Source of the DNA: Rhizomicrobium sp. | Lineage (GTDB): Bacteria > Pseudomonadota > Alphaproteobacteria > Micropepsales > Micropepsaceae | Direction of reading: 5' to 3' | Assembly (NCBI GenBank): GCA_037200385.1 | Contig: JBBCGL010000001.1 | Coordinates: 620,001 to 684,000, forward strand | DNA: 64,000 nucleotides | Part shown: in pieces, positions 1,687 through 18,808 of the stretch | How the letters are laid out: each line of letters opens with the position of its first letter | Position numbering within the stretch: the first letter of the stretch is position 1 | The notes under the pieces: generated by a model | What the model was told of the DNA's origin: nothing | Database searches by the model: none | The model's input: only the letters and a program-made list of their open reading frames with translations | Translations under genes and position numbers: made by a program

Positions 1687-1854
1687 ATGAAGCCGTCAGC
1701 CAGGATTGACGTCCTCAGTCGTCAGTCCACGATTTCCCTGCCGTTCCGGCTGCATCCGATCTATGTCCCGCATATCGTGCTGGCGAGCCTGATCGTGCTG
1801 GCCTGGTCGGTCGACGGCGTGCTCGCGCTGCTGGGCTGGATCGGCGCCCTGTAA
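1687..1854 (+). CDS. Possible 55-residue single-span membrane peptide
   Basis: ATG at 1687 follows a purine-rich GGGAGAGCAG at correct spacing. The peptide has a basic, polar N-terminus (MKPSARIDVLSRQST) and one hydrophobic segment at about residues 29-51, ending GWIGAL. This is a plausible topology for a small inner-membrane protein. The reading frame is open further upstream, but only the segment from 1687 has a ribosome-binding site. I recognise no family. It could be a chance open frame in GC-rich DNA, so confidence is limited. Confidence 0.35.
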   Translation: MKPSARIDVLSRQSTISLPFRLHPIYVPHIVLASLIVLAWSVDGVLALLGWIGAL

Positions 1855-1908
1855 AAAAAGCGGGTCTCGCGCGCGGCGGCGTTTGCCGTCCGCCCGGCGA
1901 TGACCCGC
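1853..1908 (-). terminator. Rho-independent terminator for a minus-strand transcript
   Basis: Read on the minus strand, GCGGGTC (complement of 1902-1908) pairs with GACCCGC (complement of 1860-1866), with further pairing inside, and is followed directly by seven T (complement of 1853-1859). The T-run is on the minus side, so the signal ends a transcript coming from above 1908, where no protein gene is evident. Confidence 0.55.
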
Positions 1909-2110
1909 CTGGTCTTGTCGCTACGCGGCAGGCCAGCGGCGCGCCGCATCCGGCGGGCCGACAAGCACCTTCGCTTCAACCGCCACGGTCCCTTGCGGCC
2001 GTCTCCGCGCTGCCAGACCCTCGAGACGAGGCGGGAACCGCAGAGACGGTCACGCGGATGAGCACGAGCGCGCATCCCCGACCTGTATGTGCCCATGCTT
2101 CACGCGGTTA
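1853..2110 (-). ncRNA. Candidate structured small RNA (no family recognised)
   Basis: Upstream of the minus-strand terminator the sequence can form strong stems: CTTGTCG (1914-1920) with CGACAAG (1959-1965), and CCGTCTCCGCG (1999-2009) with CGCAGAGACGG (2039-2049), the second enclosing a smaller CCTCG/CGAGG-type hairpin. No minus-strand reading frame here has a recognisable domain. I checked for the tmRNA tRNA-like end, the SRP RNA tetraloop region and RNase P core signatures and did not see them; 6S RNA cannot be excluded. The transcription start is not defined, so the upper boundary is approximate. Confidence 0.3.
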
Positions 2111-2337
2111 GATCATCGTATCCTCGAAGGCTTCGTCGCGGGAAAGGTAGGTCGTCCGCAGACGGAATATCAGCGGGGATAGCAAATTTAATGTTGGGGC
2201 GAATTCGCGAATGGAATCCGCGATGGCGCGTGGATTCGAAACGTCTAAAGACGCGAGTTATCCCCGCGGGGAAAATTCGGACTCATTCGGCGGCTTGTCC
2301 GGAGCGAATTGCTTCCACGTCGAAGCGCGGGCCTGCG
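2111..2337. other. Non-coding stretch, nothing recognised
   Basis: The base composition is mixed and less GC-rich than the surroundings, with an AT-rich patch around 2165-2200. It could contain the promoter of the candidate minus-strand RNA, but I found no convincing -35/-10 pair. Confidence 0.4.
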
Positions 2338-2403
2338 CATCCCTCGACGGGCTCGGGATGAGGCGCCCGCGCAATCCTCACATCCTGAGCTTGTCGAAGG
2401 ATG
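2338..2403. repeat. REP-like inverted pair
   Basis: Two related arms, 2338-2363 (CATCCCTCGACGGGCTCGGG and following bases) and 2376-2403 (containing CATCCTGAGCTTGTCGAAGG), are in inverted orientation around a 12-nt spacer. This is the layout of extragenic palindromic repeats. It lies just beyond the 3' end of the minus-strand gene at 2436. Confidence 0.6.
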
Positions 2404-2435
2404 GGGCTGGCGAATCCATTTGAATGGCAGCCGCT

Positions 2436-2969
2436 CTAGGACAACTTCTCGCCGCGACCTTGCATCTGTTCCAGCCAGCGCGTGCGCAATCGCGGCGAGA
2501 TCGTATCGACGCTGCCGATGAGGAGCGGCTCGCCGGCGGCGACGCCGCGCAGGGCGGGCCGCGTGTCCGGCCGGCCGCGATAGAAGAGGGCCGGCAGGCC
2601 CGAGGTGACGACGACATTCGCCGTCTTGTCGCCGGCGGGCTCGGGATGCAGATGCGCATTCAGGCGCGCGACCATGTCGAAGAGCTGGTGCAGTTCGGGC
2701 GGCGGCGCGCCGGCCCAGAGCGGATAGAAGATCGCGAGCTGGTCGGCGGCGCGCACCAGGCGGAAGGCCAGTTCCATCGCGTCGAGGGGTTCGCTGCCGG
2801 GCGCCTCGGCCAGGACGAGGGCCGAGAGCTGCAGGGCGCCGACATCCAGCCGCCTCGTCGCATTGCCGGCCGCACGGGCGCCGCGTTCATAAGCGTCGCA
2901 CAAGGCGGCGCAGAAACGCTCGGGACGGGGATCGGGGTGGCCGTTGACGACCAGCACGCTGCGGTTCAT
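2436..2969 (-). CDS. Flavodoxin-fold NAD(P)H oxidoreductase (Flavodoxin_2/KefF-like)
   Basis: A 177-residue protein of the flavin-binding NAD(P)H:quinone-reductase group. The first strand and phosphate loop appear as SVLVVNGHPDPRPERFCAAL. A DQLAIFYPLWAGAPPPELHQ segment matches the family's second flavin-contact loop, where the usual P-x-W-x-x-x-P region sits. ATG at 2969 is chosen because AAGGCAG lies just upstream; a TTG ten codons earlier is possible. Substrate is not predictable. The gene diverges from the TRIC-type channel at 3065. Confidence 0.75.
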   Translation of the reverse strand: MNRSVLVVNGHPDPRPERFCAALCDAYERGARAAGNATRRLDVGALQLSALVLAEAPGSEPLDAMELAFRLVRAADQLAIFYPLWAGAPPPELHQLFDMVARLNAHLHPEPAGDKTANVVVTSGLPALFYRGRPDTRPALRGVAAGEPLLIGSVDTISPRLRTRWLEQMQGRGEKLS

Positions 2970-3064
2970 GGCGTTCTGCCTTGGACTTGCGCCGGACAAT
3001 GCGCCATCGCGCCGGCCGCCGCCTTGAGATTTCGCAACGCGGCGTCCCGTGTTAGGCCAAGGCG

Positions 3065-3679
3065 ATGATCGCCCTGCCGATACCGCTGGTGACGCTCGAC
3101 TATGTCGGCGTCGCCGTCTTCGCCGTCACCGGCGCGCTGGCGGCGGCACGCAACCGCCATGATGCGATCACCTTCGCGGCCTTCGCGATCCTCACCGGCG
3201 TCGGCGGCGGCACGCTGCGCGACCTGCTGATCGGCCAGCCGGTCTTCTGGGTGCATGCGAGCGGGTATATCTACGTATGCCTCGGCGCCGCCGCGGCGGT
3301 GTGGCTGGCGGGCGAGCGGCCCTGGCGCAGCAGCGCCCTGGTCTGGCTCGATGCCGTGGGCCTCGCCGCCTATGCGGTGCTGGGGGCCGCCAAGGCGCTT
3401 GGCGCCGGCGTTCCGCCGCCGGTCGCCGTGGCGATGGGGGCGCTGACCGCGACGTTCGGCGGAATCCTGCGCGACCTCTTCGCGGGCCAGCCTTCGGTGC
3501 TGCTAAGGCGAGAAATCTACATCACCGCAGCCGTGCTGGCCGCGGCGGTATATGTGGCCGCGAATGCGTTCGGGATGGATGCCCGCATCGCGGCGGTCGC
3601 GGCCTTCGCCGCCGGATTCGGGCTGCGGGCCGGCGCCATCGCGCGCGGCTGGACGCTGCCGGGGTTCGAGAAGTCGTAG
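3065..3679 (+). CDS. Trimeric intracellular cation channel family membrane protein (YadS/YicG-like, UPF0126)
   Basis: A 204-residue membrane protein with about seven hydrophobic helices. It shows the internal duplication of the bacterial TRIC family: GVGGGTLRDLLIGQPVFW in the first half and TFGGILRDLFAGQPSVLL in the second, with the glycine-rich kink and RD pair in each. Bacterial members conduct monovalent cations as trimers in the inner membrane; the physiological role is unclear. The length is normal. Starts with ATG and diverges from the oxidoreductase gene across about 95 bp. Confidence 0.9.
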   Translation: MIALPIPLVTLDYVGVAVFAVTGALAAARNRHDAITFAAFAILTGVGGGTLRDLLIGQPVFWVHASGYIYVCLGAAAAVWLAGERPWRSSALVWLDAVGLAAYAVLGAAKALGAGVPPPVAVAMGALTATFGGILRDLFAGQPSVLLRREIYITAAVLAAAVYVAANAFGMDARIAAVAAFAAGFGLRAGAIARGWTLPGFEKS

Positions 3680-14593: not shown

Positions 14594-14720
14594 GGACGGG
14601 ATTCCCCTGTGGCTGCGGTAGCTTAAAGCCCTTATTTGCGACAGTTGCATTATGCCCGCGCGGCCCTTGACCGGGCCCGCGATACCCGTCAAACACCAGC
14701 GTTTTCAAAGGTTTCTCGCC

Positions 14721-16523
14721 ATGCATGCCTATCGCACCCACACTTGCGGCCAGCTTCGCAAGGACGATGTCGGGCAGACCGTCCGGCTCTCGGGCTGGGT
14801 CAACCGGCGGCGCGACCATGGCGGGCTGCTGTTCATCGACCTGCGCGACCATTACGGCATCACGCAATGCGTGATCGAGCCGGGCGAGGCGGCGTTCGCG
14901 GAATGCGACAAGGCGCGCTCGGAATGGGTGCTGACGCTGACCGGCAAGGTCGTCGCGCGCTTCGCCGAGGTCGTCAACAAGGACCTGCCGACCGGCGAGA
15001 TCGAGATCCGCATCGAGACGGTGACGGTGCAGGCGACCGCGCCCGAACTGCCGCTGCCGGTGTTCGGCGACCTCGAATATCCCGAGGAGACGCGGCTCAA
15101 ATACCGCTTCCTCGACCTGCGGCGCGAACGGCTGCACAAGAACATCGTGCTGCGCAGCAAGATCATCCAGTCGCTCCGCACGCGGATGATCGGGCAGGGC
15201 TTCACCGAATTCCAGACGCCGATCCTCACCGCCAGCTCTCCGGAAGGGGCGCGCGACTTCCTGGTGCCGAGCCGGCGCTATCCCGGGCATTTCTACGCGC
15301 TGCCGCAGGCGCCGCAGCAGTTCAAGCAGCTCATCATGGTGGCGGGCTTCGACCGCTATTTCCAGATCGCGCCCTGCTTCCGCGACGAGGACGGCCGCGC
15401 CGACCGCTCGCCGGGCGAGTTCTACCAGCTCGATATGGAGATGAGCTTCGTCACCCAGCAGGACGTGTTCGACGCGATCCAGCCGGTGCTGCTCGACACC
15501 TTCGGCGAATTCGCGGACGGGCGGAAGGTCCATGCCGAGGTGCCGCACATCACCTATGAGGACGCGGCGCTGCTCTACGGGACGGACAAGCCGGACCTGC
15601 GCAACCCGATCCGGATCTGCGACGTGTCGGACGTGTTCGGGCGCGACGACGTGGCGTTCAAGGCGTTCAAGAGCAAGACGGTGCGCGCCATCCCGGCGCC
15701 CGGCGCCGCGAGCCAGCCGCGCTCCTTCTTCGACAAGCTGAACGAGTGGGCGCGGAGCGAAGGCGCGGCGGGACTGGGCTATGTCCAGTTCGAGGCGGAT
15801 GGCGACCGGCTGACCGGCAAGGGGCCGATCGCGAAATTCATTCCCGAGGCGGCGCTGGCGGAGCTGGTCGCGCGCGCCGGGATCAAGGCGGGCGACGCAC
15901 TGTTCTTCTCGGCCGACGCCAAGACCGAGCGCGCCGCCAAGCTGGCCGGCTTGGCGCGCACCCGCATCGGCACCGAGCTCAAGCTGATCGAGGAAGGCGT
16001 CTTCAAGTTCTGCTGGATCGTCGACATGCCGATGTATGAGTGGAACGAGGACGAGAAGCGCGTCGATTTCGGGCACAACCCGTTCTCGCTGCCGCAGTTC
16101 GAGACCCCGGCCTTCATGCAGCTCGACGCCGAGCGCGACCGCGAGACCATTCTCGGGATCAAGGTCTTCCAGTACGACATCGTGTGCAACGGCTACGAGA
16201 TGCTGTCGGGCGCGGTGCGCAACCGCGATCCGGAGGTGATGCTCAAGGCGTTCGAGATCGCCGGCCATGGCCGCGACTTCACGGAAGCCAAGTTCGGCGG
16301 CATGCTGAACGCCTTCCGCCACGGGGCGCCGCCGCATGGCGGCTGCGCGGTGGGGCTGGAGCGCGTCGTGATGCTGCTCGCCGGCGAGGAGAACATCCGC
16401 GAGGTCACGATGTTCCCGATGAACCAGCAGGGCCAGGACCTGCTGATGAACGCGCCGACCGAGGTGCTGCCCAAGCAGCTGCGCGAACTGCATATCCGCG
16501 TGGTGCAGCCCGAAAAGGTGTGA
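14721..16523 (+). CDS. aspS: Aspartyl-tRNA synthetase
   Basis: A 600-residue class II synthetase charging tRNA-Asp. The N-terminal OB-fold anticodon domain starts at [20 protein letters not shown]. Class II motif 2 is [18 protein letters not shown], and motif 3 is [15 protein letters not shown]. The bacterial-type GAD insertion occupies the middle (about residues 290-410). ATG at 14721 gives the usual N-terminus ([12 protein letters not shown]). Alphaproteobacterial enzymes are often non-discriminating; that cannot be decided here. Confidence 0.98.
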
Positions 16524-16534
16524 CGCCCCTGTTT

Positions 16535-16557
16535 CCTCCCGCGGTTACGGGGGGAGG
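16535..16557. repeat. Short hairpin after aspS
   Basis: CCTCCC (16535-16540) and GGGAGG (16552-16557) are inverted around GCGGTTACGGG, 11 nt after the aspS stop. It resembles the hairpin centre at 7141-7168. It may stabilise the aspS mRNA end; no T-run follows. Confidence 0.45.
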
Positions 16558-16694
16558 CGCCACGCGACGCCGAGACGGACGGGGCGAGCGCCGCGCCGGC
16601 CCTTCCCCGCGTCCGCCCGGAAAGTTCGGCTTGGCAACGGAGATGCACCGGCCGGACGGGCTTTCGCTCATCTTCGCGATGCGCGTGTCCTGTA

Positions 16695-16723
16695 TTCGAA
16701 TTGCGGATTACAAGCATTATACA
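16695..16723 (+). promoter_or_regulatory. Candidate promoter for the RiPP-like operon
   Basis: TTCGAA at 16695-16700 and TATACA at 16718-16723 are separated by exactly 17 bp in an AT-rich island 110 bp before the precursor gene. The -10 matches 4 of 6 consensus positions and the -35 only 3 of 6, so a regulated or weak promoter is possible. Confidence 0.4.
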
Positions 16724-16832
16724 GTACAGCCTTAAGTATTCAGAATATTTCTGCAGAATAGAAGTCGCCAATATTGCCACGACGTAACATTAGACTTATA
16801 GTTGCATCGCCTTCGAGACAGGGGATGCTCCA

Positions 16833-17201
16833 ATGACAACACGGAAATTGGACCTGCAGGTTGATCGGCAGGCCATTCGCGAGGTTCTTGCCACGCTGCA
16901 GAAGCCGGGTGCGGAGAACGAATGGTGCGTTGCCTGCGGCGCCGGCGCGGCGTCTTCCAAGCTGGATTACCCGGGCGAGATCGTCGCCTCGCTTGGAAAG
17001 CAACTCACCGAACCGGCCGTTCTCAAGGATTTCATCAACCAGCTCTCAGATCGGGCGCGGCTGGAGCAGGATTGGTGCGTGGCTTGCGGCGCAGGCGCCG
17101 CCGCATCGCCCCTCGCGCGGATATCCGATCCGGCGACGCTCAGCGATGCCGTCGTGGACGAGATTGCCGCAAAACTCATATCCGCCGTCAAGCTGGGTTA
17201 G
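16833..17201 (+). CDS. Candidate RiPP precursor peptide with two WCVACGAGAA blocks
   Basis: A 122-residue acidic-to-neutral peptide with no signal peptide. Two identical decapeptides, WCVACGAGAA, occur at residues 31-40 and 81-90, each preceded by an acidic pair (NE or QD) and followed by small residues (SS or AS). These are the only four Cys and the only two Trp in the protein. The segments before and after the blocks are helix-like and loosely repeat each other (AIREVLATLQ; EPAVLKDFINQLS; DPATLSDAVVDEIAAKL). The radical SAM/SPASM gene begins 4 nt after the stop. Known RiPP precursors next to SPASM enzymes often carry repeated Cys-containing cores, so I infer this is the substrate. I recall no described family with this core. 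Confidence 0.75.
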   Translation: MTTRKLDLQVDRQAIREVLATLQKPGAENEWCVACGAGAASSKLDYPGEIVASLGKQLTEPAVLKDFINQLSDRARLEQDWCVACGAGAAASPLARISDPATLSDAVVDEIAAKLISAVKLG

Positions 17202-17205
17202 GCAT

Positions 17206-18312
17206 ATGCCACAACCTTGGCAGGGCAAGGGTGCGCTGATCGACGACGGTTCGCCGCCGCCGAAGCTGGACACCATACATTTCAATGCGACCAAGACTTG
17301 CAATCTCGGCTGCGCCTTTTGCTACGACAAGGCGATCCGCGGCAAGACGGAGAACCTGCCGCTCGATATTGTCGAGCAGATCGCCGCCGATGCGGCCGAA
17401 CTGGGGGCGCGACGGGTCATCCTGTCGGGCGGTGAGCCCATGGCGCGCACCGACTGGCGGGATGTGGCCAGAATTTTCGATATGCAGGGCATGGAAATAT
17501 CCCTGGCGACCAACGGTACGTTGATCACGGAATCGGTCGCGCAATTTCTTTCCGGGCTCAAGCATGTGACGCTGTCCATCTCCATCGACGGCGGGCGCGA
17601 AATCCACGATCGGTTGCGCGACCAGCAAGGCGCCTACGACCGCACGCTGAGCGGGCTCGCGCATCTGCGCGCGGCCGGCGTCGACTTCGATATGAACGCG
17701 ACGATCTTCAAGGCCAATCTGGCGGACGTCCCGCAATTGACGAAGATTTCGCGGGATTTCGACAGCAATATGCGGTTCTCGCTGCTGCATCCCAATGGCC
17801 GCGGCGAAACGATGGCCGCCAAGGAATTGTCGGCGGAGCAGATTTTCGAGCTGCGCGAATACTGCCACACGATGCGCAAGCTCGGCGTGAAGGTGTTCAT
17901 CAACCTTCCGCCGCTGCTGCAGTATCTCGATGAGATCATTCCCGCCCGCGGTGCGGCCTGCGGCTGGGCGGTGAACTTCTGCGGCGTGCTATCGAATGGC
18001 GATGTCACGATCTGCGGCGTGGCGAGCGACGAGCCGGATCTCGTCGCCGGCAACGTCAAGCAGACGCGGTTCCGCGACATCTGGAGCATGTCGCCGCTCT
18101 TTCGCCACACGCGCGCGCTCGACACGCGCAAGATCGAGGGAATTTGCGGACGCTGTCCGTTCAACACGTTTTGCGGTGGGGCCTGCCGGTTGTCGGCGTT
18201 CCGCGAGCACGACGACTTCCTCGCGCCTTATGCGCTCTGCCAGAAGTTCTACGACGAGGGATACATTCCGGAAGGCATTCTGGACAGCCAACCGGCTGTC
18301 GCACCGCACTGA
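17206..18312 (+). CDS. Radical SAM/SPASM maturase
   Basis: A 368-residue enzyme. The radical SAM 4Fe-4S site is C32-x3-C36-x2-C39 (KTCNLGCAFCY), with the SAM-binding GGEP at 75-78. The C-terminal SPASM domain has C252 and C259, C270 (NGDVTIC), then C314-x2-C317-x5-C323-x3-C327 (CGRCPFNTFCGGAC) and C345, enough ligands for two auxiliary clusters. SPASM proteins beside short Cys-rich peptides usually install thioether or C-C cross-links or epimerise residues. No separate RiPP recognition domain is obvious, and no peptidase or exporter gene adjoins. ATG at 17206 follows GGTTAGG; the open frame upstream overlaps the precursor and is not the start. The stop lies 4 nt from the convergent atpF stop. 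Confidence 0.9.
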   Translation: MPQPWQGKGALIDDGSPPPKLDTIHFNATKTCNLGCAFCYDKAIRGKTENLPLDIVEQIAADAAELGARRVILSGGEPMARTDWRDVARIFDMQGMEISLATNGTLITESVAQFLSGLKHVTLSISIDGGREIHDRLRDQQGAYDRTLSGLAHLRAAGVDFDMNATIFKANLADVPQLTKISRDFDSNMRFSLLHPNGRGETMAAKELSAEQIFELREYCHTMRKLGVKVFINLPPLLQYLDEIIPARGAACGWAVNFCGVLSNGDVTICGVASDEPDLVAGNVKQTRFRDIWSMSPLFRHTRALDTRKIEGICGRCPFNTFCGGACRLSAFREHDDFLAPYALCQKFYDEGYIPEGILDSQPAVAPH

Positions 18313-18316
18313 GCGC

Positions 18317-18808
18317 TCAACCGAGATTGGTACGGATTTCCCGCAGGCTCGATTCGACGAATGCGGCTTGGCGTTGCTCGTCCATCCGCGCGGCGATCAG
18401 CTTCTCCGCGGCGGCGGCGGCGGCGTCGGCCGCCAGGGTGCGGATCTCGGCGAGCGCGGCGGCTTCGGCCTGGGCGATCTTGCTCTGCGCCTGGGCGGCG
18501 CGGCGCTCGATCTGCAGGCTCAGCGCGGCGCGGGCGTCGGCGGCGAAGCGGTCGGCCTCGGCGCGGGCCTCGGTCACGATGGCCTCGGCCTCACGCTCGG
18601 CGCTGGCGGCGCGGGCCTGGAAGCCGGCGAGCATCGCCTGCGCTTCTTCCCGCAGGCGGCGGGCTTCGTCGAGCTCGGCCTTGATGCCGGCGGCGCGGCT
18701 GTCGAGCTGGCCGGCGACCATCTTGGGCACGCGGACATAGAGCAGCAGGGCGATCACCAGCACGAAGCCGACGGCGACCCACAGCTCCGGTTCTTTGAGG
18801 ATGTCCAT
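18317..18808 (-). CDS. atpF: F0F1 ATP synthase subunit b
   Basis: A 163-residue peripheral-stalk subunit. One N-terminal membrane helix (VAVGFVLVIALLLYV) is followed by a long Ala/Glu/Arg-rich coiled coil that reaches the F1 head. It is the last gene of the F0 operon, 3 nt after the b' gene. The length is normal. The stop almost touches that of the convergent radical SAM gene, with no visible terminator between. Confidence 0.95.
   Translation of the reverse strand: MDILKEPELWVAVGFVLVIALLLYVRVPKMVAGQLDSRAAGIKAELDEARRLREEAQAMLAGFQARAASAEREAEAIVTEARAEADRFAADARAALSLQIERRAAQAQSKIAQAEAAALAEIRTLAADAAAAAAEKLIAARMDEQRQAAFVESSLREIRTNLG

Follow-up and report, generated by a model that had tools for sequence, protein, structure and literature searches.

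The gene pair and its setting

The window, i.e., the whole stretch of 64,000 nucleotides analysed here, carries two adjacent genes that encode a putative precursor peptide and a radical SAM/SPASM enzyme (Table 1). As reported in the preliminary description, the pair is located between aspS and the F0 genes, and the enzyme gene begins 4 nt after the precursor stop codon. The mechanical list of open reading frames offered an alternative, longer enzyme start (TTG at 16861) that overlaps the precursor gene; the ATG at 17206 is the probable start and fits the homologues. GC content of the 150 nt upstream of the precursor gene was 42.7% vs. 66.9% for the window, and a consensus scan of positions 16500-18400 gave one sigma-70-like match (TTGCCA-17-TATAGT, 16774-16802; 0.3 expected). 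The AT-rich island described earlier is present in the window as a putative promoter, but it is not a trait of the family, since the corresponding region of both Azoarcus loci has 71% GC. A search for a terminator after the pair gave one terminator-like site in 16500-18400 (1.5 expected), which falls inside the enzyme gene.

Table 1. Features of the window and of the related loci (coordinates refer to the window unless stated otherwise).
Feature	Position	Strand	Description
aspS	14652-16523	+	Class II tRNA synthetase with GAD domain; neighbour of the pair
Upstream region, putative promoter	16683-16832	+	AT-rich, 42.7% GC; sigma-70-like match by consensus scan
Precursor gene	16833-17201	+	ATG to TAG, 122 aa, two candidate core blocks
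Core block 1	16923-16952	+	WCVACGAGAA, residues 31-40; WCVACGA invariant in 5/5 precursors
Core block 2	17073-17102	+	WCVACGAGAA, residues 81-90; WCVACGAG invariant in 5/5 precursors
Radical SAM/SPASM enzyme gene	17206-18312	+	368 aa; Pfam Radical_SAM 1.5e-23 and SPASM 1.8e-08, both above cut-off; aligned with four homologues
CX3CX2C motif	17299-17322	+	C32, C36, C39; invariant in 5/5 enzymes
SPASM region	17959-18240	+	Eight Cys (C252, C259, C270, C314, C317, C323, C327, C345); invariant in 5/5 enzymes
F0 genes b, b', a	from 18317	-	Two ATP-synt_B, one ATP-synt_A; neighbours of the pair
L002			Azoarcus sp. TTM-91
L003			Azoarcus indigens DSM 12121; neighbours: alkylation-repair gene, SDR
L004			Terriglobia MAG; neighbours: SbmA/BacA-like ABC gene (1772-3553 of this locus, - strand), DUF1499 gene, FAD/Fe-S oxidase
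L005			Zixiibacteriota MAG; neighbours: S41 peptidase about 1 kb upstream, BioY

The precursor and its duplicated block

The duplication first noticed in the sequence alone is exact: the two WCVACGAGAA blocks of the window precursor, whose starts lie 50 residues apart, contain all of its Trp (two) and Cys (four) residues. At the DNA level 4 of 27 compared nucleotides differ between the blocks, every one of them synonymous, so that the blocks are no recent DNA repeat. WCVACGA is present twice in each of the five precursors found (see below), the other four being 33-48% identical to that of the window. Judged from these two observations, the repetition of the block exceeds chance. In the alignment of the five precursors 25 columns are invariant, 10 of them outside the WCVACGA blocks, and a C-terminal AVKxG following core 2 is kept in four of the five. 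The two Azoarcus precursors differ in 14 codons, all of them synonymous, with no amino-acid change, indicating a translated and constrained protein under purifying selection at the protein level. Between their enzymes, 41 codon differences are synonymous and 13 change the amino acid.

We also considered duplication of a larger unit comprising a helix and a core. With the cores set aside, no significant likeness between units 1 and 2 was seen in any of the five precursors (shuffle fractions 0.06-0.98), and only window units 2 vs. 3 gave a fraction of 0.01 among the remaining comparisons; the repetition was observed for the core blocks only. An AlphaFold model of the precursor was poor (mean pLDDT 45), with helices at residues 12-22, 46-55, 61-77 and 105-117 and both cores outside the helices.

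No Pfam or NCBIfam model matched the window precursor above cut-off, and for the L003 and L004 precursors NCBIfam gave nothing at E up to 0.001. The ferredoxin model FdxA_fam gave E 0.0019 on the window precursor, at 18.4 bits vs. a cut-off of 65, and the source of the match was CVACGA. A 4Fe-4S ferredoxin was rejected on this score and on the CxxCxxC ligand set, as the third ligand position is occupied by Gly or Ser, never Cys, in all 10 blocks of the five precursors. Comparison with PADLOC profiles gave nothing, and with PHROGs a single weak match to an unknown family (E 0.004).

The enzyme

The enzyme has the features of a SPASM radical SAM protein, namely CX3CX2C, the SPASM Cys set and both Pfam domains above cut-off. 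The CX3CX2C motif of radical SAM enzymes carries the SAM-binding 4Fe-4S cluster, and the eight Cys of the SPASM region presumably suffice, by analogy to anSME, for two auxiliary 4Fe-4S clusters. Of the 96 NCBIfam matches of the window enzyme, the best 25 all fell far below cut-off; among these 25, the bit scores (cut-offs in parentheses) were 173.5 (500) for AhbD, 172.7 (400) for ScmF, 150.4 (500) for NirJ2, 133.3 (650) for WgkB, 125.5 (265) for MftC and 117.3 (625) for StsB; NirJ gave 135.4 vs. 515.45. The homologous enzymes behaved in the same way. ScmF, AhbD and NirJ thus missed their curated cut-offs, and the role of an anaerobic sulfatase maturase was rejected (73.2 bits vs. 349.45). As the top matches include the heme-pathway enzymes AhbD and NirJ2, profile similarity alone is no proof of a peptide substrate. 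A defence function was also dismissed, PADLOC reporting viperin profiles only (best 57.9 bits), which we took as general similarity of the radical SAM barrel.

Pfam reported no PqqD-like domain in the window enzyme, and the approximately 25 residues ahead of the barrel are too few for an RRE. The structural model had a mean pLDDT of 65: the barrel was largely confident (ten-residue blocks of 84-96 across residues 51-190, with one block at 67), unlike the SPASM region (27-66) and the CX3CX2C loop. Its nearest folds, at TM-scores of about 0.5-0.6, were anSME, PqqE, SkfB and SuiB, all of them protein- or peptide-acting enzymes. PqqE, SkfB and SuiB were also the solved sequences nearest to the enzyme profile.

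Relatives and pairing of the two genes

A search with the precursor yielded four more loci with a radical SAM/SPASM gene next downstream (L002-L005). These were found in one scan of genome_contigs, which covered 84,980 species, with a single genome each, on contigs of at least 3,000 bases by exact 8-residue words followed by tblastn; as exact query words are required, such a scan could miss relatives with other cores. The distribution is patchy. In its own genome (5,008,785 bases in one contig, with a gene content that suggests an alphaproteobacterium) the window precursor has one copy at E up to 0.001, and it is absent from the 36 other genomes of the genus searched; of the 61 genomes in that search (37 of the genus, the own genome included) one gave a match. 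Further searches gave 1 match among 385 genomes of the window's class, 1 among 289 of its phylum, 1 among 132 of the phylum of L005, 2 among 249 of the family of L003 and 2 among 4 of its genus. Every one of these matches was an already known member, which indicates that the system is rare. In viral_contigs 21 stretches matched WCVACGA, none of which was confirmed. Carriage by plasmids or phages was rejected, since tblastn with the precursor (E up to 0.1) gave nothing in 72,556 records of plasmids and 50,697 of phages.

The two genes are conserved together. In all five loci the short encoded precursor is directly followed by the putative modifying enzyme, an arrangement typical of RiPP systems, so the expectation that homologues of the enzyme would neighbour a WCVACG peptide was borne out. 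The gap is 4 nt in four loci and 63 nt in L005, the contig of which terminates within the enzyme gene. As four of the loci were found through the peptide, searches that start from the enzyme are the fairer test of pairing. For these we used the enzyme profile at E up to 1e-40 on 349, 129 and 337 genomes (815 in total, a part of the tree of life), scoring at most 5 candidates per genome in the 349- and 337-genome searches and at most 15 in the 129-genome search. Only three known members scored above 560 bits (562-703 bits), and the range for the other 29 places was 140-232 bits. Thus, among the candidates scored in these genomes, no close homologue of the enzyme was seen without the peptide. 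In the 26 of these 29 lower-scoring places that were examined, mostly up to 1.5 kb on each side, no WCVACG frame was present, and a single WCxxCG was detected (WCPGCG in L028).

The window enzyme is 66, 66, 69 and 34% identical to the other four. When ORFs were selected by BLASTP, the resulting tree (32 rows) placed the five members in one group (support 96/78; 98% of 200 bootstrap trees) with Rhizobium enzymes as its sister; the L005 enzyme is a long branch (3.51), and the tree carries a long-branch-join warning. In a cruder tree, where outgroup ORFs were picked by a crude rule and at least three were apparently wrong, L005 did not join the others (2 changes; one group in 4% of bootstrap trees). 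Altogether, precursor and enzyme constitute a real, rare two-gene unit.

Probable lateral movement and neighbouring genes

The enzymes of the window genome, Azoarcus and the Terriglobia MAG are 66-69% identical, and the pair is absent from 36 congener genomes; both point to lateral transfer. Among seven atpF loci of the same genus (L045-L051), two contain both aspS and atpF, and neither holds the pair: in congener G001 only about 0.1 kb, free of genes, separates the ends of the two, while G002 has a SpoIIAA-like ORF where the pair would be (L047, 1117-1485), suggesting that the content of this gap may vary within the genus. In the other five, aspS gave no match within the stretches examined, some of which are cut by contig ends. 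No direct repeat flanking the pair was found as an insertion scar. GC3 is 0.73 and 0.81 for the pair vs. 0.92 for aspS; as a crude set of 54 window ORFs averages 0.84 (sd 0.08), this is only suggestive of foreign origin. The L005 precursor was left out of the composition comparison.

Genes next to the pair differ among the window, Azoarcus, L004 and L005. L002 and L003 have common neighbours, and the two Azoarcus loci therefore count as one event. No protease, exporter, RRE or biosynthetic gene common to the five loci was found among the neighbours; the S41 peptidase is confined to L005 and the SbmA/BacA-like ABC gene, on the other strand, to L004.

Proposed function and alternative readings

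We consider it probable that the locus is a RiPP-type pair, acquired laterally as a two-gene cassette, in which the enzyme introduces cross-links, most likely thioethers, into each WCVACG core. We hold with high confidence that its target is the adjacent peptide; that the bond is a thioether is a reasonable expectation. We infer that the WCVACGAGAA blocks are core peptides. The 122-aa protein would be the substrate, its helical segments flanking two flexible loops with WCVACGAG. Translation of the enzyme is probably in step with that of the precursor, given the 4-nt gap, and the enzyme would bind the helical parts of the precursor without an RRE. It would then generate a 5'-deoxyadenosyl radical and abstract a hydrogen atom from one residue per loop, and the auxiliary 4Fe-4S clusters may help to join that carbon to the sulphur of a core Cys. 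The predicted product is a set of small thioether rings, sactionine- or ranthionine-like, with a loss of 2 Da per bond; were all the Cys donors, one precursor could carry up to four thioethers. The invariant Trp may serve in recognition or be a second site. As no gene common to the loci could cut or export the product, either unlinked housekeeping proteins would do so, or the whole modified protein would act intracellularly. Against this explanation stand the number of loci (five only), the lack of a common protease, exporter or RRE, the heme-pathway profile matches and the long branch of L005.

The same pair might form a C-C (cyclophane-like) or other Trp-centred bond, e.g., from Trp to the residue two positions on, with the Cys pair binding a metal or staying as thiols. 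The Trp is as invariant as the Cys in both blocks of all five precursors, and WgkB, the maturase of a W-g-K cross-link, outscores StsB (133 vs. 117 bits). According to the available part of PMC11002830, the bond made by three-residue cyclophane enzymes runs from an aromatic ring to the C-beta of the residue at i+2. Here, however, residue i+2 is Val, which is outside the acceptors named in that part, and the scores are far from the cut-offs of C-C maturases (WgkB 133 of 650 and DynA 92 of 450 for the window enzyme; AmcB 73 of 425 for L004), so we regard such a bond as rather unlikely. It is much less probable still that the genes are mere neighbours, the peptide being a CxxC protein that binds metal or serves in redox reactions without modification, and the enzyme acting elsewhere, e.g., on a tetrapyrrole. 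Among single profiles, the enzyme indeed matches that of heme b synthase AhbD best (173.5 bits), yet the cut-off is 500; moreover, the two genes occur together in distant hosts that, outside Azoarcus, have no other neighbour in common, and the 815 genomes gave no close enzyme homologue without the peptide.

As for the fate of the product, which overlaps with either type of bond, it could be an intracellular peptide-derived cofactor or a metal-binding small protein, like the precursors of PQQ and mycofactocin or quinohemoprotein subunits. We regard this as a serious, if somewhat less than even, possibility. The loci have no exporter or protease gene in common, AVKxG remains after core 2 in four of five precursors, and there is a likeness between CVACGA and part of the ligand stretch of 4Fe-4S ferredoxins, albeit with the sub-cut-off FdxA_fam match given above. 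On the other hand, no conserved adjacent enzyme would use such a cofactor, and the sparse distribution suggests an accessory trait. More speculatively, and in our view unlikely, the pair could represent a new RiPP class in which both Cys and the Trp of each WCVACG loop take part in a fused ring system, giving a doubly modified, uncleaved mini-protein that serves as an intracellular metal-binding or redox element and is carried between phyla as a two-gene cassette.

The system is minimal and experimentally easy, with two genes, two identical cores per substrate and a host available from a strain collection (A. indigens DSM 12121, L003). As the precursor has no model above cut-off and the SPASM subfamily is unassigned, co-expression would reveal a bond that is either new or known but in a new setting. 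That such a pair moves without its own exporter or protease also bears on the roles of radical SAM-modified peptides besides exported antibiotics.

Comparison with known systems

The full-text literature, searched with most subscription papers outside its scope, contained neither the core WCVACG nor anything on Trp-Cys with radical SAM RiPPs, on A. indigens with RiPPs, or joining ACGX or SynChlorMet to radical SAM. In the source texts as far as available, WCVAC occurred only in mussel mitochondrial ORFs, and the available parts of PMC9062424 and PMC11002830 do not name the WCVACG core.

Known maturases resemble the present enzyme to different degrees. Sactipeptide maturases are radical SAM/SPASM enzymes acting on Cys-containing peptides. 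Of AlbA, SkfB and StsB, SkfB belongs to the closest solved sequences as well as to the closest folds, and the StsB profile covers residues 19-336 of the window enzyme (117 bits); the differences lie in the pre-barrel segment, too short for an RRE, and in the two identical internal cores of the present precursor. The scores for sactipeptide maturases stay far below the curated cut-offs (StsB 117.3 of 625 for the window enzyme; AlbA 64.5 of 850 and SkfB 67.2 of 300 for L003). PapB and QhpD are likewise SPASM enzymes with Cys donors, and PapB matches over its full length (75.6 bits over 23-328), but the WCVACGAG block is without Asp or Glu; here, too, the cut-offs were not reached (PapB 75.6 of 340; QhpD-type 70.9 of 453). 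ScmF of SynChlorMet is the second-best profile match and again of full length (21-357 on 3-351 of 353, 172.7 bits), but its cut-off of 400 is missed and the present system has two genes only.

The nearest enzyme found outside the subfamily, and a member of the sister group in the tree, is RHE_RS31120 of Rhizobium etli p42d (30.6% identity), near-copies of which score 232 bits with the enzyme family profile; unlike the present enzymes, it has no WCVACG peptide in the 11 kb around it. On p42d this orphan radical SAM/SPASM gene (L014, 4893-6161) lies beside phasin and adenine phosphoribosyltransferase genes, with a nucleotidyltransferase gene and prs farther away, and 35 of 42 plasmid matches of the window enzyme were from Rhizobium. 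Two places in the phylum of L004 (L016 and L017, from G843 and G1053) hold an enzyme near-identical to that of p42d with the same adenine phosphoribosyltransferase gene alongside, which looks like assembly contamination.

The name of the ACGX-system radical SAM family (TIGR04340) refers, we assume, to ACG-X repeats, and the present cores contain ACGA. TIGR04340 gave 69.7 bits on the R. etli enzyme but is not among the best 25 of 96 matches of the window enzyme, and of the six models with a match to P0001 (E up to 1) none is for ACGX. Both the precursor family and the enzyme subfamily are new, though of a known kind; from its rare recurrence in distantly related bacteria the pair appears to be a means of peptide modification not described before, with a chemistry and function that we infer.
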